Shown here piece by piece: positions 23,636-56,551 of a stretch of 64,000 bases of DNA. The notes below the pieces were generated by a model, which was not told the DNA's origin, searched no databases, and saw nothing but the letters and a program-made list of their open reading frames with translations. The DNA is from a virus. Both the position numbers and the translations under genes were made by a program. The DNA lies in IMG/VR virus record IMGVR_UViG_3300044819_000016, positions 19,042 to 83,041 of that record; one strand, given 5' to 3'. Numbering within the stretch: position 1 is the stretch's first letter; every line of letters starts with the position of its first letter.

Positions 23636-24321
23636 TCCTGTCGGCGGCCGAGCAGAAGAAGCTCGTTGCCGCCCATCTGAAGCTGGCCCAGGCCGCCGCC
23701 GCCAAGGCCCGCGCCACGATGCCCGACACGGTCGAGCTTGCTGATCTGATCCAGGAGGCGACGATCGGTCTGATTGGAGCCGCCAGGCGGTTCGACCCAG
23801 CCAAGGGCGAGGACTTCGCCTCCTACGCCTACTCGCGCTGTCTCGGCGCCGCGAAGGACTACGTCCGGAGCCTCGATCCTATCTCGCGTGACGCGCGCCG
23901 CTACCAGCGCAAGATCAGGTCAACGGCTCACGCCCTCGAACTGGAGCCCGAGGGCGTGAGCCAGGAGGCCATCGCCGCGCGCATGGGCGTGAGCCTGGAG
24001 CGTTTCCATGCCATGGTCCTGTGGGGGGCGCCCGGCGGCTCCTCCATCGGCCTGGATGAGCCTGGCGTCATCCCGTTGATGCGCTCGAAGGATCCATCCC
24101 CCGAGGACCAGGTCGAGCGGTCACAACTCCTGGAGCGACTGGCCGGCGCCATCTCCAGGCTTCCCCATCGTCTCCAGGTAATCACCCTAGCGTGGCTCGA
24201 CGGCTGGCTGATGGCGGATATCGGCGTGGCAATCGAGCGCACCGAGTCGCGCGTCTGCCAGCTACTGCAAACCGCGGTCGAGATGATCCGAGACGACATC
24301 GGGCCAACTTCGAATGGATGA
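23632..24321 (+). CDS. Phage-encoded sigma-70-family RNA polymerase sigma factor
   Basis: 229 residues, overlapping the previous stop. Region 2 is clear at residues 35-80 (VELADLIQEATIGLIGAARR, FDPAKGEDFASYAYSRCLGA), as in FliA/SigB-type factors. A region-3-like HTH lies at about 109-128 (VSQEAIAARMGVSLERFHAM). Region 4 is at about 173-220, with ISRLPHRLQVITLAWLDGWL then IGVAIERTESRVCQLLQ. It should redirect host RNA polymerase to phage promoters. The GGGCCAACTTC element overlaps its 3' end. A second sigma-like protein is encoded at 25133. Confidence 0.85.
   Translation: MILSAAEQKKLVAAHLKLAQAAAAKARATMPDTVELADLIQEATIGLIGAARRFDPAKGEDFASYAYSRCLGAAKDYVRSLDPISRDARRYQRKIRSTAHALELEPEGVSQEAIAARMGVSLERFHAMVLWGAPGGSSIGLDEPGVIPLMRSKDPSPEDQVERSQLLERLAGAISRLPHRLQVITLAWLDGWLMADIGVAIERTESRVCQLLQTAVEMIRDDIGPTSNG
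24301..24311 (+). promoter_or_regulatory. GGGC(T/C)AACTTC boundary element, site 1
   Basis: GGGCCAACTTC at the end of the sigma gene, 6 bases before the ATG of the resolvase. First of nine near-identical sites at gene starts between 24 and 57 kb. Function unproven; a phage promoter is one hypothesis. Confidence 0.5.
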
Positions 24322-24851
24322 GCACACTTTATGGAGGAATCGATCCAGGCAAAGACGGATGCCTGGCAACCATCGACAAGGATGACGGCTCCGTCGTGTT
24401 CTTCGACACCCCGACGGCCGAGACGGTCAAGGCGGGAAAAACCAAGCTCGGCAACGAGCGCCACAAGCGCATCTACCTGGCCCACGAGATGGCGGACTTC
24501 CTCCGACAGCTGAAGCCTCACCTGGTCAGCGTGACCATCGAGGAAGCCCTCGCGATGCCCGGGAAGGCCGGGCGCCCGATGCCGGCTCAATCAGCGCTGG
24601 AGACCGGGCTCGGGTTCGGCATCTGGCTTGGGATCCTCGTGGCGCTCGAAATCCCCTTCAGGCGCGTTCATCCCGCGACGTGGAAGGCCGCTCTCCTGGC
24701 AGGCCAGCCGAAGGTCAAAGAGGCGGTCGTCCCGTTCGTCTGCAACCTCTACCCGCAGGCGGCGCCCTATCTCCGTGGTCCCAAGGGGGGATTGCTGGTG
24801 GACCGAGCGGACGCGACCCTCATCGCTCACTGGGGGAAGACCCAGGGCTGA
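24318..24851 (+). CDS. ruvC: RuvC-like Holliday junction resolvase
   Basis: 177 residues from ATG 24318, which overlaps the sigma-factor stop. It has the RNase-H-like layout of RuvC: YGGIDPGKDGC with Asp9, VTIEEALAMPG with Glu75/76, AQSALETGLGFG, and a C-terminal LVDRADATLIAHW with Asp162/165. These acidic residues bind the two metal ions. In phages the enzyme resolves recombination and replication branches before packaging, consistent with the RecA and SbcCD genes downstream. A strong terminator follows. Confidence 0.8.
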   Translation: MSTLYGGIDPGKDGCLATIDKDDGSVVFFDTPTAETVKAGKTKLGNERHKRIYLAHEMADFLRQLKPHLVSVTIEEALAMPGKAGRPMPAQSALETGLGFGIWLGILVALEIPFRRVHPATWKAALLAGQPKVKEAVVPFVCNLYPQAAPYLRGPKGGLLVDRADATLIAHWGKTQG

Positions 24852-24873
24852 GCACCAAATAGTCACCAACTTG

Positions 24874-24907
24874 GCCCCGCCATCCCACGTGGATCGCGGG
24901 GCTTTTT
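24874..24907 (+). terminator. Rho-independent terminator after the resolvase
   Basis: Stem GCCCCGC (24874-24880) pairs with GCGGGGC (24896-24902), with a second inner stem ATCC/GGAT, followed directly by five T. It closes the late/structural-to-resolvase transcription unit. Confidence 0.85.
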
Positions 24908-24925
24908 CGTGCCTGTACGATTCTG

Positions 24926-24954
24926 TTTGCAAAGTTTTTCAGTTACGGTAGTGT
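24926..24954 (+). promoter_or_regulatory. Promoter P1 (conserved-spacer class)
   Basis: -35 TTTGCA (24926-24931), a 17-base spacer ending in TTTTTCAGTTACGG, and -10 TAGTGT (24949-24954). The last 20 bases are identical to the promoter at 58326. It directly follows a terminator and precedes the small gene at 24996, so it should drive the 25-30 kb operon. Confidence 0.7.
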
Positions 24955-24995
24955 TCATTTCGTCGGCAGCAACCAACTTCGAAAGGACCACCACC

Positions 24996-25136
24996 ATGAC
25001 CAATCCCATCAAGCCCGGCCAGACCTTCTACCGCTACCGCGTCAACTCCTCCCGCGACTCTGCGCGTGTCGAGGTCGCCGAGGTCACGAGCGTCACGGAC
25101 AAGGTGGCGTTCGCCCGAGCCGGAGGGGAGCGATGA
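24996..25136 (+). CDS. Small hypothetical protein, first gene after promoter P1
   Basis: 46 residues (MTNPIKPGQTFYRYRVNSSR) from ATG 24996, with GAAAGGA seven bases upstream as ribosome-binding site. Beta-rich and short, with no recognised motif. The upstream promoter and downstream ATGA coupling support expression. Confidence 0.6.
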   Translation: MTNPIKPGQTFYRYRVNSSRDSARVEVAEVTSVTDKVAFARAGGER

Positions 25137-25843
25137 ATCCCACCACGCTCGAACACATCAAGGACCAGTCCCACTGGGTCGCCACCAGGCTCGGCAAGTT
25201 CTTCCATGGCTTCGAGCAGGACATCGAGCAGGAGGCATGGGTCGCTTGCCTGGAGGCCGCCAAACATCACGACCCGACGAAGCCGGGGGCGAAGGGACAC
25301 TTCTACCGCTGCGCCCTGCTCCAGGTGACGCCACGGGCAAATCGCTGGATGGCCGTGACGTCCCTGTCGAAGGTTGCCAGCCGCGCCGGCAACGTCGGAT
25401 CGAGGCAGAGGAACATGACCGTCGATGTCAAGCCCGGTTTAATCCGGCTCAAGAGCTACCGAGCCTTTGGAAGGTCGTCCTCGATCGGCGCGGGCGCCGA
25501 GCAGGCGGAGGAGTTCGACGTCTTCCCGCCCGTTCCGTTCGCGGAGGAGTCGCTCGAATCCGTCGTGCTCCTCGCCCAGCGCGAGGTGACGCGACTCAGG
25601 GCCAAGCGCCGCCGGATCATCGACCGCCTGACCCGGAACGACACCGAGGTCTGCGACATCGGATGCTTGCTGCTGGGGATCGACCGAGCCCCGGTGAGCG
25701 TAGTGGTGGCGGCGAAGCGCCTCGGTATCGACCTGGACGACGCCAAGAAGCTTGCAGCACGGTGGAGGAAGTTGCTCAAGGGGGATCCGCGAGTGGCGGA
25801 GTTGACCAAACACATCGAAGACATCGAGGAGAATCTCCCATGA
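25133..25843 (+). CDS. Second sigma-factor-like protein
   Basis: 236 residues, ATGA-coupled to the small upstream gene. Residues 28-85 resemble sigma region 2: EQDIEQEAWVACLEAAKHHD, GAKGHFYRCALLQV and NRWMAVTSLSKVASRAG. A C-terminal helical segment (APVSVVVAAKRLGIDLDDAK) could be the DNA-binding region 4. It is more divergent than the factor at 23632 and lacks the YAxxRxxGA signature. It sits first in an early-type operon. It may be a middle or late sigma, or an anti-host RNA polymerase factor; the sigma call is tentative. Confidence 0.5.
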   Translation: MNPTTLEHIKDQSHWVATRLGKFFHGFEQDIEQEAWVACLEAAKHHDPTKPGAKGHFYRCALLQVTPRANRWMAVTSLSKVASRAGNVGSRQRNMTVDVKPGLIRLKSYRAFGRSSSIGAGAEQAEEFDVFPPVPFAEESLESVVLLAQREVTRLRAKRRRIIDRLTRNDTEVCDIGCLLLGIDRAPVSVVVAAKRLGIDLDDAKKLAARWRKLLKGDPRVAELTKHIEDIEENLP

Positions 25844-26307
25844 AGCGATCAGAGGAAAGTCAGCGTCTTTACGACGAGCGGCTCAAGCGGGCCCGAGCGA
25901 CGGGGTTCATCCCTGTCGACGAAGCCGCCGAGCTGGTGGTGATGCCGCGGTCGAACATCTACCACTGGATCAGGAGCGGCGAGATCCGGACCCAGAACTG
26001 GGCCGGCGCCAACACGCGCCCCGTCCTGGTGTCGATCGCCGATCTGAAGTCCAAGGTCCCAACCGCGTTCGGAGGTGGAGACGTGCCTCCGAGGACCACC
26101 CCGCAGACCAGGCTCCATCGGGTCCACCAGTTGATCCCTCGGCACGCCCGGGCGCTGCCCGGTGTCGACGTGACGGCGTGCGGGATCAGGGACGGAGGGC
26201 CGAGCGTGAAATTCGGCGCGAACATCCGCGCCATCACCTGCCCGAAGTGCAAGGTGCTTCGGAAGGTCAGGGGACACCGAGCGAAGAAGGGAGGGAAGGC
26301 GTCATGA
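25840..26307 (+). CDS. Excisionase-type HTH protein with C-terminal zinc-binding segment
   Basis: 155 residues from ATG 25840. Residues about 21-70 form a MerR/excisionase-like helix-turn-helix (FIPVDEAAELVVMPRSNIYH, WIRSGEIRTQNW). The C-terminal part has VDVTACGIRDGG and ITCPKCKVLRKV, together supplying Cys residues for zinc. This pair of domains is known in phage DNA-binding proteins. It probably binds phage or host DNA as a regulator; no integrase is nearby, so an excision role is unlikely. Confidence 0.65.
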   Translation: MKRSEESQRLYDERLKRARATGFIPVDEAAELVVMPRSNIYHWIRSGEIRTQNWAGANTRPVLVSIADLKSKVPTAFGGGDVPPRTTPQTRLHRVHQLIPRHARALPGVDVTACGIRDGGPSVKFGANIRAITCPKCKVLRKVRGHRAKKGGKAS

Positions 26308-26591
26308 TCAAGTTCGAGAAGATCAAGCCAGGGATGGTCCTGTACGACGTCCACACCTACCAGATAGGGAACACCACGCTGCGGTCGTATGGGGAGTGGG
26401 AGGTGCAGATCATCGAGGTCTATCCCGAAACCCGCTCCGCCAGCGTGTCGTGGAACGGCAACCGACCAGAGGTTTGGCGGGAGAAGCAACTGAAGGGGCT
26501 GCGCGCGAAGCCGACTGAAATGGTTCGCGGTTTCCTCGGGAGCCGGCGACCCGCGAAGAAGCACGAGAAGAAGGGAGCAAAGGCACCATGA
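26304..26591 (+). CDS. Small basic hypothetical protein
   Basis: 95 residues (MIKFEKIKPGMVLYDVHTYQ), ATGA-coupled. The first 60 residues look like a small beta-barrel (YGEWEVQIIEVYPETRSASV). The C-terminus is highly basic (RRPAKKHEKKGAKAP) and may contact nucleic acid. No family was recognised. Confidence 0.6.
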   Translation: MIKFEKIKPGMVLYDVHTYQIGNTTLRSYGEWEVQIIEVYPETRSASVSWNGNRPEVWREKQLKGLRAKPTEMVRGFLGSRRPAKKHEKKGAKAP

Positions 26592-26803
26592 GCGTCACGC
26601 GCGTCGTACCAGAGACCGACGGAGAACAGGCTATCCGTTGGTGCAAACTGGCGGGTGATCGGCTGAAAAAAATTTGGCGTCTGGAGGCTCGCATCCGCGA
26701 GCAGGATGCCGCCCTGAATGAGAAGGATCGTCTCCTGAAAGTCGCTGAGGAGAACGCGGCGGCTCTGAGGATTGCGGTTGCCGCATTGTGGGAACGACGA
26801 TGA
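26588..26803 (+). CDS. Small coiled-coil protein upstream of the helicase
   Basis: 71 residues, starting at an ATG that overlaps the previous stop. Charged heptad pattern (RLKKIWRLEARIREQDAALN) over most of its length suggests a coiled coil. It ends one base into the helicase start, so the two are translationally coupled. A helicase partner is possible but not shown. Confidence 0.55.
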   Translation: MSVTRVVPETDGEQAIRWCKLAGDRLKKIWRLEARIREQDAALNEKDRLLKVAEENAAALRIAVAALWERR

Positions 26804-28206
26804 AGATCACAGCCGACAACCTGTGGGCGCACGTCGAGGGGACACAAGCGGAGCGCGACTTGCTCCGCCTGTACCTGACGGTCCAGGTCAAGAACGCGGA
26901 GCACACGGAGTCGTACCAGAGCGGGCATTGGGATGGGACGGTGAAGTTGTTCGACGGTCGGCGGGAGCGGTTCGCGACTGGGCTCGTCCGCATGGTTGTC
27001 GGCTACTGCCGCGAGAAGGGTGTACCGGCCGAGGTCGTGGATGCGAGGGCTCCGCACGAGACGCGCATCCTTCCCGGCGGGGGATGGCTCCGTCAGTACC
27101 AGGCGGAGGCGGTGGAGGCGATGGTCCGCCGGGGACGAGGGATCCTGATGGCTCCGACCGGCGCGGGGAAGACGGAGATCGCCGCCCGGCTCACCCAGGC
27201 CATCCCTTGCCGCTGGCTGATCCTGGTGGACACCCGCGACCTGATGCACCAGATGGCCGAACGGATTGCCCTGAGGACAGGAGAGCCCGGCGGCCTGGCT
27301 GGGGACGGTGAGTGGTCGCCGCGTAGGGTGACCGTGGCGACCCTCCAGACCCTGCTCCAGGGGATAGGCCAAGGCGGCCCCGTGGATCGCCTCCTGGAGG
27401 GAGCCCAGGGGCTCATAGCGGACGAGGTACAGGTCCTCGCCGCCGACGAGTTCAGGAAGGTCGCGATGGCCACCCCGAACGCCTGGTGGAGGTTCGGAAT
27501 CTCGGCCACGCCGCTCGAACGCGAGGACGAGGCGGACTACCGGGCCATCGAGGCGCTTGGGCCATTGATCCACGAGATTCCGGTGGAGACCCTGTTCGAA
27601 CTGGGGCACCTGGCTCGCCCCGAGATCCTGATGGTCGAGTTCCCGCAGCCCAGGATGACCGGCAGCTACCCGGAGATCTACGAAGCCGGGGTGGTCTTGT
27701 CGGACGCCCGCAACGCCCTGGTGGCCAAACTCGCCGCTCGATACCACGCTCCGCGCCCGACGCTGGTGTTCTTCAAGTCCATCTATCACGGGAAGGTCCT
27801 GGCTCGGGAGATCGGCAAGACCGCGGAGGTCGAGGTGGTCTCTGGCGTCCACGGGACGAAACAGCGCGACAAAGCACGGGGCAGACTCACCCGTGGCCAC
27901 ACCGAGGTTCTGATCACGAGTCGAATCTTCAACAAGGGGATCGACATCCCTGAAGCCCGCTCCGGCATCAACGCCGCGGGGGGCGCCAGTCGGATCGACG
28001 CCCTCCAGAAGGTCGGGCGCGGGATGCGGGTGGTACCCGGCAAAACGACCTTCAGGTACTGGGACATCTTGGACACCGGGAATTACAACCTGGAGGGCCA
28101 CGCCAGGAAGCGCATCGAAGCGTACCGAAGCCGAAACTACAACGTGCGAGTCGTCCGCCAGCGGGAGCTGGACGCCGTGCTCGCCCAGATGGAGAACACA
28201 CCATGA
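26800..28206 (+). CDS. SF2 (UvsW/DEAD-like) helicase
   Basis: 468 residues from ATG 26800. Motif I APTGAGKTE (118-126), motif II DEVQ (208-211) instead of the common DEAH, motif III SATP (235-238), and motif VI QKVGRGMR (403-410) preceded by FNKGIDIPE. The N-terminal 95 residues with a QSGHWDGTVKLFD phrase match the small domain of T4 UvsW-like helicases. Such enzymes unwind branched DNA and R-loops during phage recombination-dependent replication. This agrees with the resolvase upstream and the RecA/SbcCD genes downstream. Confidence 0.85.
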   Translation: MKITADNLWAHVEGTQAERDLLRLYLTVQVKNAEHTESYQSGHWDGTVKLFDGRRERFATGLVRMVVGYCREKGVPAEVVDARAPHETRILPGGGWLRQYQAEAVEAMVRRGRGILMAPTGAGKTEIAARLTQAIPCRWLILVDTRDLMHQMAERIALRTGEPGGLAGDGEWSPRRVTVATLQTLLQGIGQGGPVDRLLEGAQGLIADEVQVLAADEFRKVAMATPNAWWRFGISATPLEREDEADYRAIEALGPLIHEIPVETLFELGHLARPEILMVEFPQPRMTGSYPEIYEAGVVLSDARNALVAKLAARYHAPRPTLVFFKSIYHGKVLAREIGKTAEVEVVSGVHGTKQRDKARGRLTRGHTEVLITSRIFNKGIDIPEARSGINAAGGASRIDALQKVGRGMRVVPGKTTFRYWDILDTGNYNLEGHARKRIEAYRSRNYNVRVVRQRELDAVLAQMENTP

Positions 28207-30655: not shown

Positions 30656-30703
30656 ACGGGGCTCCTGGAGCATCCTGTGCGTTCTGGGGCCCAGACGCAC
30701 GAA

Positions 30704-30728: not shown

Positions 30729-30741
30729 TGTTCGTGCAACC

Positions 30742-30770: not shown

Positions 30771-30857
30771 TCTGGGGGTTGTCCAGACCCGCGTTCGGGG
30801 GAAAAGATCCCACGGATGCGGGCGGTTGTCAAACCCCTATCCGATGGAGACTTTCGA

Positions 30858-34181: not shown

Positions 34182-34486
34182 AGACCAAGAACATCGATAT
34201 GTTTGCCGCCCCGGCTGCTCCAGTCGCTCCCAGTGCCCCGCTCAGGGCCTCCAAGGCCCCGGCGCCCCAGCCGACAGAGAACGCCCCGCCAGCGCGAAGC
34301 CAGAGGCCCTGGGTGACGGCTCCGCCGGCCAGGACGCCTGTGTACTACATCACATCGGGCATCTCGACCTACGTCTGGCTGTGCCCCAGGCACGTCGTCG
34401 CCCGGAAGAAGGCCGGTTGGACGGTCAAGGGAACCGGGACCTACGCTGACTGGGGCTGCGACGATTGCCCTCGCGAGACGGGCTAA
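34178..34486 (+). CDS. Small zinc-finger-like protein
   Basis: 102 residues, ATGA-coupled to the helicase. Pro/Ala-rich N-terminal half, then a compact C-terminal part with WLCPRH and GCDDCPRETG, supplying Cys/His ligands for one zinc. It ends in Gly-TAA, with the TAA inside a GGGCTAACTTC element. Possibly a replication accessory; unknown. Confidence 0.6.
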   Translation: MKTKNIDMFAAPAAPVAPSAPLRASKAPAPQPTENAPPARSQRPWVTAPPARTPVYYITSGISTYVWLCPRHVVARKKAGWTVKGTGTYADWGCDDCPRETG

Positions 34487-34490
34487 CTTC
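34480..34490 (+). promoter_or_regulatory. GGGC(T/C)AACTTC boundary element, site 2
   Basis: GGGCTAACTTC, 18 bases before the ATG at 34509. The in-frame TAA of the upstream gene lies inside the element. Confidence 0.5.
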
Positions 34491-34508
34491 CCTCGTACGG
34501 AGGGAACG

Positions 34509-35069
34509 ATGAGCGAAAGAAAAGTCAGCACCGATGCCTTGGAGACCCTTGGCACGATTCACACGAAGGACGAGAAGCGCGATGCCATTCACCTGGCGGT
34601 CGTTCAGGTGAGTGCCAAGATGCTCCTTAATCCAGGGGAGTCGATCGCGATCAGGAACGGCTGGGCACACATCCCAAGAGGCGACGAGGAATCCCTGGCC
34701 ATCGTCGACCCGTTCCTCACGGCCAAGGTGCGCTATGGCGATCGGTTCTGGGCTGTCCTGCGCCCGCGCTTGGTGACGTCACTGCGCCACGTCTGGACGC
34801 ATACCGCGTTCCCTGACACCGAGGCCCACCAGGATGGCCGCACGGCATCCGAGGTGTGGATGGACGACTTCTCCAAGTCCCTCGGGATAACCACGGAGAC
34901 GCTCATGGAGGGCGCGAAGAGGTACCTGAAATATGACGACCGCCTGTATTGCGGGGAGTTGTTCGACGGCAAGGAAATTCCCAAAGAGTTTTGGAGGCAC
35001 TTCGAGGAGATCGAGAAGACCACCGTCCCCCAGGAGAAGCGGCACGACTTCTTGAGCTGCTCATGCTGA
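34509..35069 (+). CDS. Hypothetical protein
   Basis: 186 residues with a good ribosome-binding site (GGAGGGAACG). Contains HIPRGDEESLAIVDPFLTAK and FPDTEAHQDGRTASEVWMDD, and ends with two Cys (LSCSC). It looks globular and soluble. No family recognised. Placed between replication and recombination genes and preceded by the GGGCTAACTTC element. Confidence 0.6.
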   Translation: MSERKVSTDALETLGTIHTKDEKRDAIHLAVVQVSAKMLLNPGESIAIRNGWAHIPRGDEESLAIVDPFLTAKVRYGDRFWAVLRPRLVTSLRHVWTHTAFPDTEAHQDGRTASEVWMDDFSKSLGITTETLMEGAKRYLKYDDRLYCGELFDGKEIPKEFWRHFEEIEKTTVPQEKRHDFLSCSC

Positions 35070-35555: not shown

Positions 35556-36212
35556 ATGAACGAATCGAAGCCAGAGCATCCGACGGGTGACACGGTGGCC
35601 ACGGACCTGAATGTCGAGATCGATGCCATGCGCAAGGTCTACATGGCGGTACTCGCCGTGCCGCCCGAGCGCCGCGCCGAGGTCTTGGCGTGGGTCAGCA
35701 AGCGCCTCGAACCCCAGCGCGCGAAGCAGTTCGTCCGCGACCCGCAGGCCGCTCAGGCGAACCCGGTGATCCTGCACGTCGGCGACCCGACTCCGCATGA
35801 GGTGGCATTCACGAACGACCCGAGGAAGTACGCGCATCTCATGGATCCCCAGGACGTCCAGTCGGCGACGGAGAAGATTCAGCAGCTGCGCCCCAGCCTC
35901 GGCCTAGTGAACCCTGGTGGCGGCCTCACCATCGCAATAGGAGGCGGCGGCACGTCGGGAGCCGGCGAACCGACCGCGACCATCAAAGACATCCGTGGCC
36001 ACCACTCGCCATACGCCGAACTGGGGACTTTGCGACAGGTGATCACCGAGGTGGTACGTCACAAGTTCGGAGGTGTCACACCTGCCCCCGTGGCGATGGT
36101 GGAGTTCATCCGGGAGCTTCGAGATGGACCGAACGGCCCGACGAGGGGATTTCTGAACGTGATCCCGGACGACACGCTGGAGGAGCGGATCACCCAGCTC
36201 CTGGAGGGCTAA
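35556..36212 (+). CDS. Hypothetical protein with Gly-rich middle
   Basis: 218 residues; the strongest ribosome-binding site in the region (AAAGGAGGGTGAG) precedes its ATG. Helical N-terminus (MRKVYMAVLAVPPERRAEVL), a glycine-rich linker near 121-137 (IAIGGGGTSGAGE), then a globular C-terminal part. The last residues are LLEG-TAA with the stop inside a GGGCTAACTT element. No family recognised. Confidence 0.6.
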   Translation: MNESKPEHPTGDTVATDLNVEIDAMRKVYMAVLAVPPERRAEVLAWVSKRLEPQRAKQFVRDPQAAQANPVILHVGDPTPHEVAFTNDPRKYAHLMDPQDVQSATEKIQQLRPSLGLVNPGGGLTIAIGGGGTSGAGEPTATIKDIRGHHSPYAELGTLRQVITEVVRHKFGGVTPAPVAMVEFIRELRDGPNGPTRGFLNVIPDDTLEERITQLLEG

Positions 36213-36216
36213 CTTA
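36206..36216 (+). promoter_or_regulatory. GGGC(T/C)AACTTC boundary element, site 3
   Basis: GGGCTAACTTA (last base differs), 33 bases before the ATG at 36250, again including the stop codon of the upstream gene. Confidence 0.45.
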
Positions 36217-36249
36217 GACCCTGTCACCCCACCCCGAACGGAGACCAGA

Positions 36250-36728: not shown

Positions 36729-37091
36729 ATGGCACTCAAGGACATGGAAACCCTGCATCAGCTGTACCGCGATCTCCAGGTCGCAAAGCAACTCGGCTAC
36801 AAGCGTCTCGCCGCTGCTCTCGCCACGACGCTTCTCACCTTGGCTCATGGGCTCATCGGCGAGTGCATGGGCGCCGAGTTGATCGCGAAGGCGGCGAGCG
36901 CGGCGAAGGAGGACATGCCGCCCGACGAGGTCAGGCTTCTGTTGCTGATCGTCACCGCCCCGAATGAATCGTTCGAGACCGTGACGAAGGTTCTCCAGAG
37001 GGATCTGGATGCCAAACTCGCCAAGGAGCGCGAGGCGTCCCAGGAGCCGGCCCAGACGACGACGGAGGAGCGCGAAACGACGGCGGGCTAA
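36729..37091 (+). CDS. Small helical hypothetical protein
   Basis: 120 residues (DMETLHQLYRDLQVAKQLGY), helical, with a moderately hydrophobic stretch (LAAALATTLLTLAHGLIGEC) and an acidic, Thr/Glu-rich tail. Ends TTAG with the stop in a GGGCTAACTTCC element. Lies between the mediator-like and SSB-like genes; function unknown. Confidence 0.55.
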   Translation: MALKDMETLHQLYRDLQVAKQLGYKRLAAALATTLLTLAHGLIGECMGAELIAKAASAAKEDMPPDEVRLLLLIVTAPNESFETVTKVLQRDLDAKLAKEREASQEPAQTTTEERETTAG

Positions 37092-37095
37092 CTTC
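37085..37095 (+). promoter_or_regulatory. GGGC(T/C)AACTTC boundary element, site 4
   Basis: GGGCTAACTTC, 44 bases before the ATG of the gp32-like gene. The region between is C/A-rich (CCAACCACC), as expected for an unstructured leader. Confidence 0.5.
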
Positions 37096-37139
37096 CATCC
37101 CAACCACCAACCAACCCAAACCCAAAGGAACAAACGCAC

Positions 37140-39510: not shown

Positions 39511-39521
39511 GGGCCAACTTC
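39511..39521 (+). promoter_or_regulatory. GGGC(T/C)AACTTC boundary element, site 5
   Basis: GGGCCAACTTC followed by GAA, as at sites 1 and 6. It is 24 bases before the preferred GTG start at 39546 and 6 bases before an upstream ATG. No stop codon is involved here, and the variable base is C. Confidence 0.5.
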
Positions 39522-39545
39522 GAAACTATGGGCAAGGAGAAACAA

Positions 39546-43060: not shown

Positions 43061-43074
43061 CCCCGGCTCCCCTC

Positions 43075-43380
43075 GAATTCGAAAGAGGGTCTTCGAATTT
43101 TTCATGAGCACCTGAAATTCGAAAGAGGGTCTTCGGTTTTTCCAGGGACTCCCGGAATTCAAAAGAGGGTCTTCGATTTTTCTGTGAGCACCCGATAGCC
43201 CCGCCCGGGGCTTTTTGAATCCCCCCTCCCGGATTCCTAAAGAGGGTCTTCGAATTTTCCGCACCCGCCAGCCAGCTGCCGCGGAAGGATCCCGCGCGCG
43301 CTGCGCTTCCGGGAATCAAAAGAGGGTCTCGGAATTTTCCGACACTCCCGGATTTCTAAAGAGGGTCTTGGATTTTTTCG
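43075..43380 (+). repeat. Six dispersed copies of an AAAGAGGGTCTT repeat
   Basis: Copies start near 43075, 43114, 43154, 43231, 43311 and 43350. The consensus is GGAATTC, then AAAGAGGGTCTTCG, then AATTTTTC. The core AGA-GGG-TCT can fold on itself. In copy 1 the arms AATTCGAA and TTCGAATT extend this to a clear hairpin followed by T5, while the others are less paired. Several copies are followed by TGAGCAC. Candidate multiple terminators or protein-binding iterons. Confidence 0.75.
43197..43216 (+). terminator. Rho-independent terminator after sbcC
   Basis: AGCCCCG pairs with CGGGGCT across a 2-base turn, followed by T-rich sequence (CTTTTT). Located between repeat copies 3 and 4. Confidence 0.75.
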
Positions 43381-43440
43381 TGAGCACGGGCCAGCCAGCC
43401 CCCGCGCGGAGCCGGTGCACAGTCCGGATTCCGGAAAAAA

Positions 43441-43538
43441 GCACGGAGCACGGAGCACGGAGCACGGAGCACGGAGCACGGAGCACGGAGCACGGAGCAC
43501 GGAGCACGGAGCACGGAGCACGGAGCACGGAGCACGGA
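43441..43538 (+). repeat. Tandem array of fourteen 7-bp units (GCACGGA)
   Basis: Fourteen perfect copies in a row. The unit matches the GAGCACGG found just after repeat copy 6 (43382-43389), so the array may have expanded from it. Perfect identity implies recent slippage, and copy number is probably variable. Seven-base periodicity shifts the frame at each unit, arguing against coding use. Confidence 0.95.
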
Positions 43539-43600
43539 GCGATCGCGCATGGGACTCAAACCTCCGAAAGAAAAAGATCGGGGAGCTTGAAAATAATTCA

Positions 43601-43629
43601 TTGACGAAGTTTCTTAGTTACGGTATTCC
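43601..43629 (+). promoter_or_regulatory. Promoter P2 (conserved-spacer class)
   Basis: -35 TTGACG (43601-43606), 17-base spacer ending TTTCTTAGTTACGG, -10 TATTCC (43624-43629). The ATG of the next gene is only 9 bases after the -10, so the mRNA would be leaderless or nearly so. Confidence 0.7.
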
Positions 43630-49259: not shown

Positions 49260-49270
49260 GGGCTAACTTC
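49260..49270 (+). promoter_or_regulatory. GGGC(T/C)AACTTC boundary element, site 6
   Basis: GGGCTAACTTC followed by GAA, 6 bases before the ATG at 49277. Here the element lies in a true intergenic gap after a terminator. The TAA is not a stop of any gene, so the element is conserved without coding reasons. Confidence 0.6.
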
Positions 49271-49276
49271 GAACCC

Positions 49277-49528
49277 ATGGAACCACGAGAACCACGAGAC
49301 GCATTCGAGCGGGTGATTCTGGCGATGGCCCGTGTTGCTATTGCAGAGCGCGAAGCCGCAAGGGCCCGCTACCGCGCGGCAGGTGTCGGCGGCGGCGAAG
49401 GGGAACGCCTACAGGCACGCTACCGGGCCGCGATCGAGATCCAGCACGTCTGCCAGGACGAAGCGGCCTCCGCGAACGATGCACTGGTGCGCGAGACCGG
49501 CGGACTGCCGACCGAGCCGATGGGCTAA
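49277..49528 (+). CDS. Small helical protein
   Basis: 83 residues (EPREPRDAFERVILAMARVA), Arg/Ala/Glu-rich helices. No ribosome-binding site is obvious; the start lies 6 bases after a GGGCTAACTTC element. Ends EPMG-TAA in the next element copy. Confidence 0.55.
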   Translation: MEPREPRDAFERVILAMARVAIAEREAARARYRAAGVGGGEGERLQARYRAAIEIQHVCQDEAASANDALVRETGGLPTEPMG

Positions 49529-49532
49529 CTTC
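49522..49532 (+). promoter_or_regulatory. GGGC(T/C)AACTTC boundary element, site 7
   Basis: GGGCTAACTTC followed by CAGGGG, 6 bases before the ATG at 49539; contains the stop of the upstream gene. The sequence matches site 9 over 14 of 15 positions. Confidence 0.5.
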
Positions 49533-49538
49533 CAGGGG

Positions 49539-51443
49539 ATGAAAGTAACCGTCACCCTTCGCAATGGCGTCCGAGTCTCAATCACAACCGACAGCGCAAC
49601 GGAAGTCGGCGCTGTCCTCCGCGAGCTAGGAGTACCAGGCGAGCCAACATATCCCGAGCGGGGCGGAGACGACGAACCGTCTCCGGAGGAGATTCGCCAG
49701 GCTTTCCGCCATTCGGCATGGGAAGCAAACGAGCGCGCCGAATGGCTGGCACGCCGTAACCGCTACGTTACCGAGACCTCCGACCCTGCCGCCGAGGACG
49801 CCTACGTCCCTGCCGCCGACCACAACGGTAACCCCCGGTGGTGGCACACGGCCGAGACCGAACCGCCAGACGCATCGGCCGGACAGCGGTTCGATGCCTC
49901 GCACCCAACGGGGCCCGGCATTGACGGAGAACCGCCAGACACGAGTATTACCGCTGCGCGTGCGGCGCGGTTTACTCGATGCATACCACGCGCCGCCAGC
50001 GGTTGGGCAGTCCGTCAACCGTTCGAGCCTGCCGAGGTCGTCCTACCGCCTGGTCGCGTCTGGCCCGTCGGGACCGATGCATGGTCCTGGGAACGAACCC
50101 AGGCGGATGGGACGCTAGCCTACGGCGCCTGCACCGATCGGGAATCAGCCTACGCGGCCGCTGGCCTACCGCTACCCGTCGTCCCCGAATCGCTACCGCC
50201 GGGCCGCGCGTGGCAACCGGACAACGCGTGGTTTGATCCTGGACAACTGGCCGCGCTGACCCTCGAACCTGCCAAAGCGGCCGCGTCAGTCTCCAAGCCT
50301 GCAGAACAGCCTGCCGGACCCACCCTGCCGCGCAAGGAGTCGCCATTGGCCATCGTCGGCGGCAGGGAATCAACCCAGGACGTCACGGAATGCCCCTCCC
50401 TTGCGCAAGGCGAAGAGATTACAGAGACTAGGCTGTCACCCCCTTGTCAGGACGATGACGCGTTGCTTAGCGCAGCTAATGCGGTCGTGGCGTCAGACGC
50501 GGCTATCTCGGCTGTTCCAGTCAGGGACCGGACCACGGGCAAGAGTCTCGTCGACGCGCCTGGCGGGTGCGTCTTGCTCTACCGCGGTTCGGGCTGGTCC
50601 TGGCGATGCACCGTTCCCGGCTGGCAGCACCACAGCAAGGGCGGATACGACACCCGCGCCGATGCATTGGCAGGTGTCGAGGCATGGCTGGCCAGTACAC
50701 CAGGAGAGAATGACGGTGGAACGCTCGACCTCGTAGACCGCGAAAAGGCACGGTCCAAGATTCCGCCCGGAGGTCGCCTTTGGTACCAGCGTGGCGACGA
50801 AGCGTATGGGTCTCGGTCTGGCTGGTGCTGGGAACTTCCACAAGCGCCAGAAGGCCAAGGGGTTATTGGCGTCACGGATGGCGGCCCACACTTCTACTAC
50901 CGCGATGCCTTGCACGCGCTATGGTGCGCTGCCGATAATCTTGGCTTGCCTGTCGAGGCGGTGCCTGCATCCCGTCCGACGGCAGATTTACCGCCGAACA
51001 AACCGCGAGGTGGGCGCCGGAAGGACGGTCAGCCGTACAAGCGCCGCAAGGTCAACGTCCCTGGCGACGGCGGCACCTCAAACGAGACGGCAAAGCAGGA
51101 AGTCGCGCCTGCGTTCTTGCCAGCGACCCTACCGCCGGCCGACGACAATACCCGCCGGTCGCGCACCCCAGGGTACCGCGCCACTCGGAACGAAGGACTC
51201 CGCAAGGTGCGCGAGACAGACCCGTTGCCAGAGGTCGACGACTTGGCTTCCCGGTTGCCGCACAGACCCACTGATCCAAAGCTCTACATCCACCCCGGTG
51301 CAGGTTGGGGGCCGATGGAAGACGGCGGCATCGTCAAGCATCTCGTGTGCAAGGGCAGCGGGTGCGATGCCTGCAATCACCAAGGCTGTAAGCGTTGCAT
51401 CGAGAAACCGCCTCGGAAGTGGAAGGGGTTCGGGGCCATTTGA
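49539..51443 (+). CDS. Large accessory protein with repeated Trp motifs and Cys-rich C-terminus
   Basis: 634 residues from ATG 49539. A small N-terminal domain (KVTVTLRNGVRVSITTDSAT) is followed by a disordered, Pro-rich part. Three loosely related segments follow, each with a Trp-rich core and an 'R..A..A' helix: WSWERTQADGTLAYGACTDR near 182, GWSWRCTVPGWQHHSKGGYD near 350, and GWCWELPQAPEGQG near 430. The C-terminus has VCKGSGCDACNHQGCKRC for zinc. A 63-bp segment (49940-50002) also occurs, in another frame, in the next gene. Function unknown. Confidence 0.5.
   Translation: MKVTVTLRNGVRVSITTDSATEVGAVLRELGVPGEPTYPERGGDDEPSPEEIRQAFRHSAWEANERAEWLARRNRYVTETSDPAAEDAYVPAADHNGNPRWWHTAETEPPDASAGQRFDASHPTGPGIDGEPPDTSITAARAARFTRCIPRAASGWAVRQPFEPAEVVLPPGRVWPVGTDAWSWERTQADGTLAYGACTDRESAYAAAGLPLPVVPESLPPGRAWQPDNAWFDPGQLAALTLEPAKAAASVSKPAEQPAGPTLPRKESPLAIVGGRESTQDVTECPSLAQGEEITETRLSPPCQDDDALLSAANAVVASDAAISAVPVRDRTTGKSLVDAPGGCVLLYRGSGWSWRCTVPGWQHHSKGGYDTRADALAGVEAWLASTPGENDGGTLDLVDREKARSKIPPGGRLWYQRGDEAYGSRSGWCWELPQAPEGQGVIGVTDGGPHFYYRDALHALWCAADNLGLPVEAVPASRPTADLPPNKPRGGRRKDGQPYKRRKVNVPGDGGTSNETAKQEVAPAFLPATLPPADDNTRRSRTPGYRATRNEGLRKVRETDPLPEVDDLASRLPHRPTDPKLYIHPGAGWGPMEDGGIVKHLVCKGSGCDACNHQGCKRCIEKPPRKWKGFGAI
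49940..50002 (+). repeat. 63-bp repeat, copy A (out of frame)
   Basis: 60 of 63 bases match 51476-51538 by eye. In copy B the segment encodes a zinc-ribbon-like peptide (HEYYRCACGAVYS). In copy A that frame is interrupted just upstream by a TGA at 49922, and the host gene reads it in a different frame. Confidence 0.85.
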
Positions 51444-51838: not shown

Positions 51839-52071
51839 CCGAACACCCCGAGATTGAGGCGATGATCCTCCGTCACGCGCTACAGGCGCTCGACTGCTCC
51901 GTTGCCATCCAGGCAATCCAGCGCGCGAACGCTCTCATCGGCTCCAAGTCTGCGCACTCTGATACCGCCATCCAGATCCTTGCCGAGCGGGCCAATTACC
52001 ACCGTACACGCGCCGCTGAACTGCGAGCGATGATGCGAGCCGAGGAAACCCCAGAGGAGGCCAGATCATGA
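51835..52071 (+). CDS. Small helical protein
   Basis: 78 residues (MILRHALQALDCSVAIQAIQ), fully helical, ending with an acidic tail. ATGA-coupled at both ends. No motif recognised. Confidence 0.55.
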   Translation: MTEHPEIEAMILRHALQALDCSVAIQAIQRANALIGSKSAHSDTAIQILAERANYHRTRAAELRAMMRAEETPEEARS

Positions 52072-52631: not shown

Positions 52632-52897
52632 GCAAGCGGTCGGAAGCCCTGGAGCGTGTGCGCCTCGGCATCCTCGACTTGATCAAAGAAGCCCGCGAGG
52701 AGAAGGGCTGGACGATCGATACCTTCATGGCCAATCAGGAGACGATCAACCGCGTCCGCGCTGTCATCGTCCCTATCGGTCTGAAGATCGAACTTGATAC
52801 CGACATGCCGGACAAGGAATTCATCCTGTTCGACAGCACCATGCGCGTCACCATGAAGGCCGCCGTCGGCCAAGGCGAAGGGGGGATGATCAATTGA
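52628..52897 (+). CDS. Small hypothetical protein
   Basis: 89 residues from ATG 52628. Helical N-terminal half (SEALERVRLGILDLIKEARE), then a beta stretch (LKIELDTDMPDKEFILFD). No family recognised. Ends inside the next TTG start. Confidence 0.55.
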   Translation: MSKRSEALERVRLGILDLIKEAREEKGWTIDTFMANQETINRVRAVIVPIGLKIELDTDMPDKEFILFDSTMRVTMKAAVGQGEGGMIN

Positions 52898-53088
52898 TTC
52901 TCTACGTTGTTCACCACAATTATGCGGGTGATTCCAATCCTCCGATGGAGAACATCCTAGGCGTCTACACGACGGCTGAGGCGGCGATCAATCGAGCCCG
53001 TGAGATCAACCGCAAGTGGTACGACGACTATTGCAATGTGACGGCGATAAAGGCTGACGAACCGCTCGACCCTCCGGGTGACCATTGA
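52894..53088 (+). CDS. Small hypothetical protein
   Basis: 64 residues from TTG 52894 (TTGA overlap). LILYVVHHNYAGDSNP and GVYTTAEAAINRAREINRKW form a 'beta strand then helix' pattern typical of small phage proteins of unknown role. Confidence 0.5.
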   Translation: MILYVVHHNYAGDSNPPMENILGVYTTAEAAINRAREINRKWYDDYCNVTAIKADEPLDPPGDH

Positions 53089-53906
53089 GCCTCGGATCGA
53101 TGACGGACCACGAGCGGATGATCTGGGCCGCTCGCCAGCTCCAGCTTGCCCGGGCCCGCGACGACTTCTCAAGGTTCGTCCCTGCCGCCATCCGCGGCGA
53201 CGACGGCGCCCCTGTCCATCCCTCGATCCTGGTGCTCGCCTGGTGGGCGCATGCCCGGTGGTCCTGGGAGCGTAACCTGCACGCCGGCATCTACACCCCG
53301 CTGCCGGTCGGAGCGTTCACCACGGCGCTCGCCACGTGGCTTGCAGGGCGCGGCTACCGCGTCCAGGTAGTGGCGCCCAACTCGGCGCTCGCCGCTCACC
53401 GTCTAAGGTCGATCCGAACCACCCTTGAGTCGCCACAGGTTCAGCGGATTTTCCCCTCTCCGCCGCCGTTGAAGTGGGGTGCGCATTCGGCCACGGCTGA
53501 GCCGGCCTCGCCCGGCGCTCCGCCACGTGTCCTAGTTGACTGCCGGCCGGTCGCATCCCGAGGTGGATCGCCAGGGTACAACCGGCTCATCCTGGAGTCC
53601 CCCGCCGATCAGGACAATTCGTCCACGGCTGAGCGGCAGGACGCCACCCGCCGGCAGGTCGAGCTGACTTGGCTCGGCGCGCTGGAGGAAGGCGGCAAGG
53701 CGCTTTGGATATCCCCGCGGATGGCCGGTGGTCCGGGCCCTGTGCTCCGGGAGCGCGCCGACTTCGCGTGGCTCGACCAGCGCCCGTCCATCGACGGCTC
53801 CGCTTGGGAGCAGGAGGCGTATGCCGTTCCCGAGACGTACCCAGAAGAGCTGGCCGCGATCCTGCATTCGATGGCCGTGATTCCAGCCACGAAGGTCGCG
53901 GGCTAA
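53085..53906 (+). CDS. Terminase-large-subunit-like protein with degraded ATPase motifs
   Basis: 273 residues from TTG 53085; an ATG at 53100 is an alternative. The order of segments recalls the TerL ATPase half: DDFSRFVPA, then a His/Trp block (WWAHARWSWERNLHAGIYTP), a Walker-A-like spot reading PLPVGAFTT, GRGYRVQVVAPNSALAAHRL, and RLILESPADQD where TerL has the Asp-Asp Walker B, then GGKALWISPRM. The Walker A Lys and Walker B acidic pair are not conserved and no nuclease domain follows. It is therefore unlikely to be the packaging motor. Homology is inferred. Confidence 0.4.
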   Translation: MSLGSMTDHERMIWAARQLQLARARDDFSRFVPAAIRGDDGAPVHPSILVLAWWAHARWSWERNLHAGIYTPLPVGAFTTALATWLAGRGYRVQVVAPNSALAAHRLRSIRTTLESPQVQRIFPSPPPLKWGAHSATAEPASPGAPPRVLVDCRPVASRGGSPGYNRLILESPADQDNSSTAERQDATRRQVELTWLGALEEGGKALWISPRMAGGPGPVLRERADFAWLDQRPSIDGSAWEQEAYAVPETYPEELAAILHSMAVIPATKVAG

Positions 53907-53910
53907 CTTC
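53900..53910 (+). promoter_or_regulatory. GGGC(T/C)AACTTC boundary element, site 8
   Basis: GGGCTAACTTC followed by GATCG, 17 bases before the ATG at 53928; includes the stop codon of the upstream gene (KVAG-TAA). Confidence 0.5.
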
Positions 53911-53927
53911 GATCGTAGGAGGCGACG

Positions 53928-54338
53928 ATGAAAACGACACTGATGATCCTGGCCCTGGCGAGTCCGAGTCCCGTAACTCTGGCAAGTATCGCGACGATGT
54001 CCCCGACGTTCGCGGCGAGCATCGGCATGGATGGACAGAGGTACGCCGTGGATCTCGGCAAGGTCCCCACGCAGCACATCCACGTGCGCCTGCCGTCGGC
54101 CATGGCCCAGCGCAACTGGGAATGCGAGGTGACGCCCGAGACCTTGAGCAACGACGGGACCAGGATTTTCCGGAACTTCGCGTGCTCCGCTGGCGACACG
54201 TCCGTGGTGGTCGAAGCGGTGTGCGGGCGCTCGACGCCGGATGCCGACCTCGGCCTGATGGAGATCAGGACGCCGGGCGAGGCGTTCGAGTTCAGGATCA
54301 GTTGCCAGACGAAGGTCATCGGCGGGGCGTCGCTGTGA
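53928..54338 (+). CDS. Exported Cys-containing protein
   Basis: 136 residues with TAGGAGG as ribosome-binding site. The first 30 residues resemble a signal peptide (MKTTLMILALASPSPVTLAS ... TFAAS). The mature part is beta-rich with four Cys (ECEVT, FACSA, AVCGR, ISCQT) that could form two disulfides. Likely periplasmic or secreted. Could be an envelope-directed accessory such as superinfection exclusion, but there is no direct evidence. Confidence 0.55.
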   Translation: MKTTLMILALASPSPVTLASIATMSPTFAASIGMDGQRYAVDLGKVPTQHIHVRLPSAMAQRNWECEVTPETLSNDGTRIFRNFACSAGDTSVVVEAVCGRSTPDADLGLMEIRTPGEAFEFRISCQTKVIGGASL

Positions 54339-54628
54339 GCCTGCGCGACGCTTGCGATCACTTCGTGGAGCTTGCCGACGTCCGTCAGCAGTTGGCGAAG
54401 GCCCAGGCAGAGCGCGACGAGGCCCGGAGAATCGCCGCTCACGCCGGGAAGTGCCTGATGCGCATCGACGCCGCCCTGAAGATAAATGACGGCAGCGAAG
54501 ACGCGAACGCCGCGTTCTTTGCGTTCGTCACCATCTGCACGATGGAGGCAATCCTGGCGATGAAGGATGCTCTCGGGCCATCCTTCCCGAAGCCGAATGT
54601 GCCGACGCCGTCCAAGCGAGGAGGCTAG
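54335..54628 (+). CDS. Small coiled-coil protein
   Basis: 97 residues from GTG 54335 (GTGA overlap). LADVRQQLAKAQAERDEARR is a coiled-coil segment. A second helical part follows (FFAFVTICTMEAILAMKDAL). No family recognised. Confidence 0.55.
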   Translation: MSLRDACDHFVELADVRQQLAKAQAERDEARRIAAHAGKCLMRIDAALKINDGSEDANAAFFAFVTICTMEAILAMKDALGPSFPKPNVPTPSKRGG

Positions 54629-54630
54629 CC

Positions 54631-54948
54631 ATGGGCTACATCCGGAACGGAATCATCGCCGACCTCGAAGACGAGCTTGCCCGGGCGCACGCCAAGCACG
54701 GGACTCAGTCCTTGCCGCTCGGGACCCGCGACGGCGGGGCGAACCTCGTGGTTCGGGCCCAGGCCCAATTGACCTGCGACCGGCACACCCGCGAAGGGAC
54801 GCTCACCTGGGAGGACATCATCGCCGAGGAGCGCGCCGAGGCTGCGTGTGAAGAGGACTACGAACGCTGGCGAGCCGAGACGATCCAGGAAGCCGCGATG
54901 TGCATAAAAGCCGTCCAGAGCATGGACGAAAAGATGCATCGTCGATGA
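54631..54948 (+). CDS. MazG-like small domain protein (tentative)
   Basis: 105 residues. DLEDELARAHAKHGTQSLPL, GTLTWEDIIAEERAEAACEE and RAETIQEAAMCIKAV follow the pattern 'A..KHG.Q ... tW..Il.EE..Ea ... E.iQ.AA' of short MazG-type nucleotide pyrophosphohydrolases and related phage proteins. Acidic residues in EERAEAACEED could bind Mg. If active it would hydrolyse nucleotide triphosphates; this is inference from a loose pattern. Confidence 0.45.
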   Translation: MGYIRNGIIADLEDELARAHAKHGTQSLPLGTRDGGANLVVRAQAQLTCDRHTREGTLTWEDIIAEERAEAACEEDYERWRAETIQEAAMCIKAVQSMDEKMHRR

Positions 54949-55199
54949 GGCGCATCGAAGGTCAACACCGCGGCGTGAAGTGGGTCGTCTTTCCGACCAA
55001 CAAACTCGACCAGTTCGAGGTCCACGCGTCTCACTACTTCAAGGGCCGCACGTTCAATGCTCTGCACATCGTTGATCTCCTCCCCCAAGATCCACCGACC
55101 ATCTTCGAGTCCCACGCGCGCCACATGATCGACGCGATGCTGGACGACCTGATTCCGTCTGTCACGATGCGAACCGGCGGCGACGTCCGCCCCAACTGA
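54945..55199 (+). CDS. Small hypothetical protein
   Basis: 84 residues from ATG 54945 (ATGA overlap). Contains RGVKWVVFPTNKLDQFEVHA and FNALHIVDLLPQDPPTIFES, an alpha/beta pattern. No family recognised. Confidence 0.5.
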   Translation: MRRIEGQHRGVKWVVFPTNKLDQFEVHASHYFKGRTFNALHIVDLLPQDPPTIFESHARHMIDAMLDDLIPSVTMRTGGDVRPN

Positions 55200-55211
55200 G
55201 AAGGAGACACG

Positions 55212-55649
55212 ATGCCCGAAGAGAAGTTGAAGACGTTCAAGAAGCCCCTGCTCTGCGAGTTGACCGAGGCCGAGAAGGTCAAGAAGGGTCACAAGGCCGG
55301 CACCCTCAAGAAGAAGCTGGCGAAGGTGCGGCTGGAGATGAAGGCCGCGACCGTCGGCCACAAGGACGAGATCAAGAACATCCAGGAGAACCTCGACACG
55401 CTCCTCGACGAGCTGGAGACTGGCCAGGAGGAGCGTCAGATCGAGTGCCGCGAGGTGAAGAACTTCGCGGCCAAGAAGGCCGAGGTCATTCGCCTCGACA
55501 CCAACGAGGTCGTCTCGACGCGGTCCCTGATGGCCGAGGAGTTTCAGACCGACCTCGCGCCGGTGATCACCGACGTGCGCGACGCCGGCCTCGACGACGA
55601 TCTGCCGCCGCCCAAGAAGCGCGGGCGGCCGAGGTCGGCCAATGCTTAA
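55212..55649 (+). CDS. Coiled-coil protein with AT-hook-like C-terminus
   Basis: 145 residues with a GAAGGAGACACG site. Long charged helices (KKKLAKVRLEMKAATVGHKD; ENLDTLLDELETGQEERQIE) end in PPKKRGRPRSANA, where KRGRPR is a perfect AT-hook core. It might bind the minor groove of AT-rich DNA. This is similar in layout to small phage and bacterial nucleoid-type proteins. Function unproven. Confidence 0.6.
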   Translation: MPEEKLKTFKKPLLCELTEAEKVKKGHKAGTLKKKLAKVRLEMKAATVGHKDEIKNIQENLDTLLDELETGQEERQIECREVKNFAAKKAEVIRLDTNEVVSTRSLMAEEFQTDLAPVITDVRDAGLDDDLPPPKKRGRPRSANA

Positions 55650-55926
55650 GTCGGAGGAACTGAAGAAGGAATGGGAGCGGCTGGGTAACGAGTGCGACGC
55701 CTCCTTTGCCAGCGTCTCCGCTGCCAATGAAGAGGTCACCCTGGCGGATGCGAAACTGCACTATGCGAAGTCCGTTCATTTGCGGCTTTTGGTGTCCCAC
55801 AGCGCAATCGGCAGGTCCACGGCGGATGCCAGGAATCGCTACTTCGATGCCCTCCACGAGGAGCAGGAAGCAGAGCGCAACGCCGTCGCTGTGCCGGGCG
55901 GCGAAGTGACTCTCGGTGAGATGTAG
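55642..55926 (+). CDS. Small helical protein
   Basis: 94 residues (LKSEELKKEWERLGNECDAS), helical throughout. Start overlaps the end of the AT-hook-like gene by 8 bases. No family recognised. Confidence 0.55.
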   Translation: MLKSEELKKEWERLGNECDASFASVSAANEEVTLADAKLHYAKSVHLRLLVSHSAIGRSTADARNRYFDALHEEQEAERNAVAVPGGEVTLGEM

Positions 55927-55930
55927 GATC

Positions 55931-56065
55931 GTGGCGGCAGTGGCGTTGCTCATCGCGGTTCTCGGACTGGCGGCGTGGGGGATCGACGTGGAGATCGGGC
56001 TCTGGAAGGAATGTCGCCGCGACCATTCTTTCTGGTACTGCAACAGGGTCCTCGGTGGGCGCTGA
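55931..56065 (+). CDS. 44-residue membrane micropeptide
   Basis: Starts at GTG 55931: AAVALLIAVLGLAAWGID is a single membrane segment, followed by a short polar tail with two Cys (KECRRDHSFWYCNRVLGG). It sits in a run of overlapping small genes and its end overlaps the next GTG start. No Shine-Dalgarno is obvious. One of several very small membrane proteins in this region. Confidence 0.5.
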   Translation: MAAVALLIAVLGLAAWGIDVEIGLWKECRRDHSFWYCNRVLGGR

Positions 56066-56294
56066 CAGCCGGTGGATCGTGGTCTACGTCCACCAGAATC
56101 CACACTTTCCCCTCGCGCGTCTTCATCGCCGGTTCACGAACCGTGACGGGTTCGAGAGCCGGTATGTCGACGTCACGCTCCACATGGCCCAGATGCTGAA
56201 GGTCGGGATGCCCGTCGAGATCACCCGCGACGGCAAACTCGCACCGTGCCTCCTCGAACCGCTGGTGAAGCTGAAAGACGGAGTACCGCTGTGA
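56055..56294 (+). CDS. Small hypothetical protein
   Basis: 79 residues from GTG 56055 (SRWIVVYVHQNPHFPLARLH; KVGMPVEITRDGKLAPCLLE). Probably a small beta-rich fold. Overlaps both neighbours by a few bases. Confidence 0.5.
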   Translation: MGADSRWIVVYVHQNPHFPLARLHRRFTNRDGFESRYVDVTLHMAQMLKVGMPVEITRDGKLAPCLLEPLVKLKDGVPL

Positions 56295-56539
56295 CACAAG
56301 TCCGCCAGTCCACGTTGCTTGCGCTCATCCTGGCGACCGGAGCCGTTGCCGGCGCCGCGCATGACGTGGACTGGCGGCGCGTTCTCCTGGGCCTGACGGA
56401 GGCCAGCGCCATCGTGACCAGCTGGTGCGCGGTCATGGCCGTTGGGACCGATGAGGACTTCTGGTATCGTAGGTTCTTCGCGTCAGGCGCCCTGATGTTC
56501 AGCCTGATGATCTTGGTCGCGATCTTCCCCGTCCAGTGA
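56291..56539 (+). CDS. Small membrane protein
   Basis: 82 residues from GTG 56291. Hydrophobic segments at about 8-23 (LLALILATGAVAGAA), 44-60 (SAIVTSWCAVMAVGTD) and 67-81 (ALMFSLMILVAIFPV) predict two or three membrane spans. Size is compatible with a holin or a superinfection-exclusion protein, but it lies far from the lysis block. Unknown function. Confidence 0.55.
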   Translation: MTQVRQSTLLALILATGAVAGAAHDVDWRRVLLGLTEASAIVTSWCAVMAVGTDEDFWYRRFFASGALMFSLMILVAIFPVQ

Positions 56540-56540
56540 C

Positions 56541-56551
56541 GGGCCAACTTC
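56541..56551 (+). promoter_or_regulatory. GGGC(T/C)AACTTC boundary element, site 9
   Basis: GGGCCAACTTC followed by CAGGG, 6 bases before the ATG of the metalloprotease gene and 1 base after the upstream stop codon. Not part of a coding sequence. Confidence 0.6.

Follow-up and report, generated by a model that had tools for sequence, protein, structure and literature searches.

What does a short sequence do that recurs almost unchanged just ahead of the start codons of one virus? The question is raised by IMG/VR record IMGVR_UViG_3300044819_000016, which spans 83,041 bp and on which nearly all of the called genes lie on the + strand. The window considered here is a stretch of 64,000 nucleotides, bases 19042-83041 of that record, whilst the outer 19 kb, outside the window, were analysed as locus L009. 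An earlier note on the window had drawn attention to an 11-bp word, GGGCYAACTTC, that marks nine gene starts. This word and the bases that follow it, here called element I, probably constitute a phage-specific promoter of the -10 type, lacking a -35, which serves DNA-metabolism and accessory genes and is likely read by means of the sigma factor encoded at 23632.

The nine sites are indeed near identical and share the + strand, including the one at 36206 that ends in A. A genome-wide search by strand, which the earlier note had called for, returned eight exact copies on the + strand and, as controls, none on the opposite strand and none of the reversed motif, against a chance expectation of 0.03-0.17 copies per strand under Markov models of order 1-4. 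Two variants in the last base of the core (36206 and L009:2552) raise the total to ten sites. The tenth, GGGCTAACTTT, lies beyond the window at L009:2552 (window -16489), with an ATG led by a Shine-Dalgarno (SD) sequence 17 nt downstream; the others range over 24.3-56.5 kb of the window. Alignment of the ten gives a unit longer than the reported 11-mer, namely the 18-bp GGGCYAACTTC-S-A-NNNN-A, in which the first base after the core is G or C (five sites each), the second is A in nine of the ten and the seventh is a purine in all (A in nine, G in one). An 18-column weight matrix trained on the ten sites and then scanned over the genome scores them at 20.8-29.0, with the next + strand site at 13.5 and the best - strand site at 12.5. 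As the matrix was trained on these same sites it is the gap that is informative, not the scores themselves, and this gap to the rest of the genome indicates that the ten form a closed class. The weaker relatives proposed previously do not belong to it, with those at 60342 and 61072 scoring 8.3-8.5, within background, and that at 3011 missing from the list of top scores; the sequence at 61072 retains an A at the predicted +1 together with an SD, and could be a copy that has decayed.

The spacing between the core and the start codon is bimodal. Along the window the nine spacers measure 6, 18, 33, 44, 6, 6, 6, 17 and 6 nt, in agreement with the 6 to 44 bases given before, and over all ten sites half stand exactly 6 nt from an ATG and half at 17-44 nt. 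In the 6-nt group the predicted +1 is the A of the start codon itself. These sites, all on the + strand, are 24301..24318 (GGGCCAACTTCGAATGG-A; ATG 24318, a RuvC-like resolvase gene by PHROGs), 39511..39528 (in a 214-nt gap; ATG 39528, a gene of 92 amino acids followed by an SbcD-like gene), 49260..49277 (in a gap; ATG 49277), 49522..49539 (ATG 49539) and 56541..56558 (ATG 56558), with 49277 and 56558 each the first possible start of its open reading frame (ORF). The long-spacer group, also on the + strand, consists of 34480..34497 (a T variant; predicted +1 A 34497, ATG 34509), 36206..36223 (last core base A; predicted +1 G 36223, ATG 36250), 37085..37102 (predicted +1 A 37102, ATG 37140 of an SSB-like gene by PHROGs), 53900..53917 (predicted +1 A 53917, ATG 53928) and L009:2552. 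Genes of the first group have no SD, their pairing of -2.4 to -2.5 kcal/mol being equalled or exceeded by about 89% of called starts, and have the arrangement of leaderless genes, in which the -10 precedes the start codon by about 12 nt, whereas the other five are SD-led, with pairing of -5.8 to -10.3. The two groups differ in SD pairing with a Mann-Whitney p of 0.005, and one identical spacer at five of ten sites has a p of about 8.5e-5 under a uniform 3-45 model, both values assuming a uniform spacer and the starts at 39528 and 49277 that we chose.

The long-spacer group is informative about the last position of the unit. No start codon demands a purine there, and the seventh base after the core is nevertheless A, G, A, A and A. 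At 53900 and L009:2552 the sequence AGGAGG begins at exactly this base, the SD at 34480 starts with the base that follows, and wherever an SD is present it lies downstream of the predicted transcription start. Such a purine and such a placement of the SD are expected if transcription starts at base 7, giving either a leaderless message or one with its SD downstream. No conserved -35 is apparent upstream of the ten sites, either in aligned columns or in a word search with positional jitter, and RNA folding around the sites reveals no common structure (z -2.3 to +1.6).

At six sites element I is also fused to the end of the preceding gene. At 34480, 36206, 37085, 49522 and 53900 it overlaps the Gly-TAA ending of the upstream gene, as had been described, and the same holds for L009:2552. 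Position 5 of the core is T at all six of these sites and C, C, T and C at 24301, 39511, 49260 and 56541 respectively, with CAACTT replacing TAACTT in three of the ten. The earlier note had held that the sites without this overlap carry C or lie in true gaps; 39511 and 49260 do lie in gaps, whereas 24301 does not, sitting within the last codons of the sigma gene, where it encodes G-P-T-S.

That gene, at 23632..24321 on the + strand, adjoins and contains site 24301 and encodes a FliA/WhiG-like sigma factor with regions 2 and 4 (Pfam E 6.9e-14 and 3.9e-7). Its closest PDB match is FliA (6pmi, E 2.5e-21), and the FliA and FliA/WhiG models of NCBIfam are the best matches, under their naming cut-offs. 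Of the two sigma-like factors put forward earlier, this one is strong by Pfam, PDB and NCBIfam, whereas the protein at 25133..25843 (+) is only weakly sigma-like, with a partial Sigma70_r2 match of 12.9 bits that falls below the cut-off. An AlphaFold2 model of the latter protein was discarded (predicted local distance difference test score 39). A sigma factor encoded in the same genome, and a conserved motif upstream of genes at a fixed distance from an inferred purine start, are both features of promoters that depend on a phage sigma factor. Going by these sequence features, the 23632 product together with the host core polymerase is the most likely reader of element I.

Directly established for element I are its sequence and spacing, the bimodality of SD pairing, the +1 purine, the missing -35 and the sigma homology, and from these we infer its transcript starts, temporal class and reading factor. 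The element would span -17 to +1, with GGGC at the place of an extended -10 and YAACTT at that of the core -10, and host core polymerase, equipped with the FliA/sigma28-like factor of the phage, would begin transcription at the purine in the seventh position past the core. At five sites this purine would be the A of the ATG, resulting in a leaderless mRNA, and at the other five a short leader would carry its own SD. The pyrimidine at position 5 would allow the element to serve also as the TAA stop of the previous gene. From the gene content, the DNA-metabolism and accessory genes so driven may represent a middle class. A phage-specific promoter was among the roles suggested in the earlier note, and it gains support from the eight exact copies where at most a fraction of one is expected, the fixed spacing, the +1 purine, the SD downstream of the start and the encoded sigma28-like factor.

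A second element, element II, occurs in the virion module and has the form ATC-N3-YTGGCC, then 5 nt, then ATG or another purine. Its sites are L009 9665, 12035, 12178 and 16776, and window 2650..2667 (ATCGGTCTGGCC-N5-A, +), 6553..6570 (ATCGGGCTGGCC-N5-A, +) and 19323..19340 (ATCGGACTGGCC-N5-G, +). At the first two window sites the predicted +1 is the A of ATG 2667 and ATG 6570, and at the third the ATG follows at 19346. Further matches to the pattern, of uncertain value, are found on the + strand at L009 15124 and window 24471 (inside the RuvC-like gene) and once on the - strand. Two relatives from IMG/VR, L044 and L045, retain ATC, CTGGCC and the 5-nt spacing at orthologous starts, and before the gene that precedes the portal gene the three middle bases and the spacer have diverged, leaving the element as a footprint. 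The site at 19323 stands before the first of four successive small genes (19346-20930) that appear to be paralogues (repeat family D16). At L009:16776-16823 and L045:14014-14070 element II is followed by the start of a very short frame whose end lies shortly ahead of the next gene; here the frame reads ATG-8 codons-TAA-ATG and is possibly a leaderless leader peptide.

At L009 12035 element II overlaps the stop codon of the portal gene, and with it begins a candidate phage small RNA, a conserved sequence about 110 nt long that lies between this gene and the next (L009:12035-12166, window -7006 to -6875; L044:8092-8219; L045:9294-9421). Its 5' stem opens one base after the predicted start and contains one compensatory pair, its 3' end is a terminator-like hairpin with TTT, and its folding z-scores, hairpin included, are -1.9, -3.9 and -3.6. 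No match to the candidate was found in Rfam. Since element II precedes a non-coding RNA, action in transcription is favoured over action in translation, and because it has the same geometry as element I it also supports the latter as a promoter. This transcriptional role is more secure than the reading of element II by a sigma factor, as the GC-rich CTGGCC is unusual as a -10. It is possible, and is put forward tentatively, that the two sigma-like factors each have their own start-codon-fused class without a -35, GGGCYAACTTC-SA serving DNA metabolism and ATC-N3-CTGGCC the genes of the virion.

The same geometry could arise if the main sigma factor of the host read element I as an extended -10 with leaderless starts, TAACTT being a form of TANNNT placed at -13 to -8, the usual position for leaderless genes (PMC3160421, PMC12340547). 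A third class of five sites, TTGACA/TTGCNA-N10-11-TTACGRTANNN(T), near 24927, 43601, 44389, 45890 and 58326, indeed looks like host sigma70 promoters (TTGACA...TTACGGTA). One member is TTGCAA-N10-TTACGGTAGTGT at 24927..24954 on the + strand; these sites too use TANNNT, and that at 43601 lies a few bases before an ATG. They show clear TTGACA and TTACGG, however, whilst at element I the conserved T is lost in the three CAACTT sites and GGGC and the base after TT are conserved far beyond what sigma70 requires, so that reading by the host factor is unlikely. A phage-encoded polymerase, single-subunit or otherwise, is very unlikely to be the reader. Phage-type polymerases also use a contiguous, near-invariant block without a -35, which is what element I presents at -17 to -5, but no RNA polymerase family was found in the large ORFs scanned and there was no Rpb1 match with a working control, the control of the PF00940 search having failed.

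Could the element instead act in RNA, at the start codon, as a translational repressor site, a processing-enzyme site or a ribosome signal other than the SD? Five copies occupy the position of the SD before genes that have none, yet each of the other five is followed, after a varying interval, by a proper SD, no structure is common to the folds, the +1 purine would be unexplained and the related element II stands before a non-coding RNA. The RNA-processing or regulator site entertained in the earlier note is likewise disfavoured because it leaves unexplained why an SD is present at long spacing and absent at 6 nt, and a signal of this kind is quite improbable. Hardly credible is a module boundary for gene shuffling, also raised before, or a repetition due to chance or coding. 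Six of the ten sites fall exactly at gene junctions, and in unrelated viruses the 11-mer turns up within coding sequence, where it encodes for example W-A-N-F. The copy number on one strand is far above expectation, though, the contexts differ (Gly-stop, non-coding and G-P-T-S), site 24301 falls within a gene pair overlapping by 4 bp, and recombination needs neither an exact 6-nt spacing nor a +1 purine.

Several points weigh against a promoter read by the 23632 sigma factor. This protein possesses region 4, normally the reader of a -35, yet no -35 is found, and element I differs from the sigma28 consensus GCCGATAA; the combination of a GCCGATAA-like -10, a TAAA -35 and an 11-bp gap is absent. 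Two of the five start codons at 6 nt (39528 and 49277) are our choice; a simple gene caller that took no account of the motif placed the starts at the in-frame ATGs 39477 and 49325. Moreover, the searches turned up no relative that contains the DNA-metabolism module, and element I is represented by a single genome. Scanning IMG/VR with GGGCYAACTTCSANNNNATG yielded 34 stretches with a single match each, apparently coding words such as W-A-N-F, and thus no second virus with element I was seen in that scan. Protein queries with DnaB, sigma and UvsX found no relatives, and the TerL query found two (L044 and L045, terminase 80% identical) that hold the structural module only. No relatives were found among genome contigs, nor any TerL match among isolated phages. 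A query with a conserved protein without an assigned function returned 80 loci. Just one of these, L058 (46.7 kb), is distantly related and has several genes in common with this virus; element I is absent from L058, and no comparable repeated start motif was visible by eye.

Other features of the record may be mentioned here. The gene after site 34480 (34509-35069) encodes a conserved protein of phrog_11912, function not assigned, with an invariant C-terminal CSC, which is about 36-51% identical across Schitoviridae, Emdodecavirus, jumbo and many uncultured phages. Six AAAGAGGGTCTTCGAATTTTTC-type repeats, mostly about 40 or 80 bp apart, and then a tandem AGCACGG array (43069-43395 and 43440-43544) lie in a 578-bp non-coding gap and could be origin iterons or binding sites. 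Two tandem duplicated genes at 58663-59957 share a 300-bp stretch with 89% identity and have long Ala-rich GCC repeats. The far end of the record (63829-63994, record 82870-83035) is about 71% identical to L044:7689-7854, beside the portal gene of that relative, which may reflect a rearrangement, a mobile gene or a genome end.

If element I is a promoter of the kind proposed, sequence alone would suffice to read how transcription is programmed in an uncultured phage that has hardly any known relatives, with host-type promoters, element I for replication genes and element II for virion genes. A FliA-like phage sigma factor would have as its predicted target a highly conserved sequence that lacks a -35 and whose specificity is new, and the virus would have merged stop codon, promoter and start codon within about 18 bp. 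Start codons in such phages would need re-annotation, as here at 39528 and 49277. Were each class to have its own factor, a single short block would determine the temporal class of a gene as well as its leaderless translation, and the virus would possess an unusual type of -10, rich in GC.

Promoters of middle and late genes that are read with a phage-encoded sigma factor are known from Salmonella phage 7-11 and phiEco32 (PMC4331800). As in those phages, a highly conserved short motif of low copy number stands before functional or structural genes, a sigma factor is encoded and host-type promoters occur alongside; with element I in the DNA-metabolism block and element II in the virion module, there are two classes for two blocks, as proposed for phage 7-11 (PMC4331800). 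The sequence differs from the TGATGT core found there, as do the fusion to start and stop codons and the FliA/WhiG-like nature of the candidate sigma factor. Sigma28 promoters, TAAAGTTT-N11-GCCGATAA, have a -10 that combines an extended segment with a core (PMC2859248), a layout that GGGC plus YAACTT resembles and for which a homologous factor is encoded, although element I has another sequence and no -35. Leaderless genes of high-GC bacteria are recognisable by a -10 some 12 nt ahead of the start codon (PMC3160421), and such start-codon-adjacent TANNNT promoters occur in Deinococcus-Thermus and Actinobacteria (PMC12340547, PMC3160421). Element I shares with them the distance to the start codon, the lack of an SD and a start codon at the predicted +1, and is unlike them in being a long, near-invariant block, without TA in three of ten sites, that forms a viral set in one gene module. 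The late promoters of phage AR9, AACA-6N-TA/G with R as the start, are read by a phage multisubunit polymerase and give leaders of 26-491 nt (PMC5312081); they too combine a short upstream block, a fixed distance and a purine start without a -35, whereas no phage multisubunit polymerase was found among the large ORFs scanned here. As a promoter, element I would belong to a known kind, the phage-sigma middle or late promoter exemplified by phages 7-11 and phiEco32, and what is new is that its 18-bp block is joined to the start codon and, at some sites, to the stop codon of the previous gene too.

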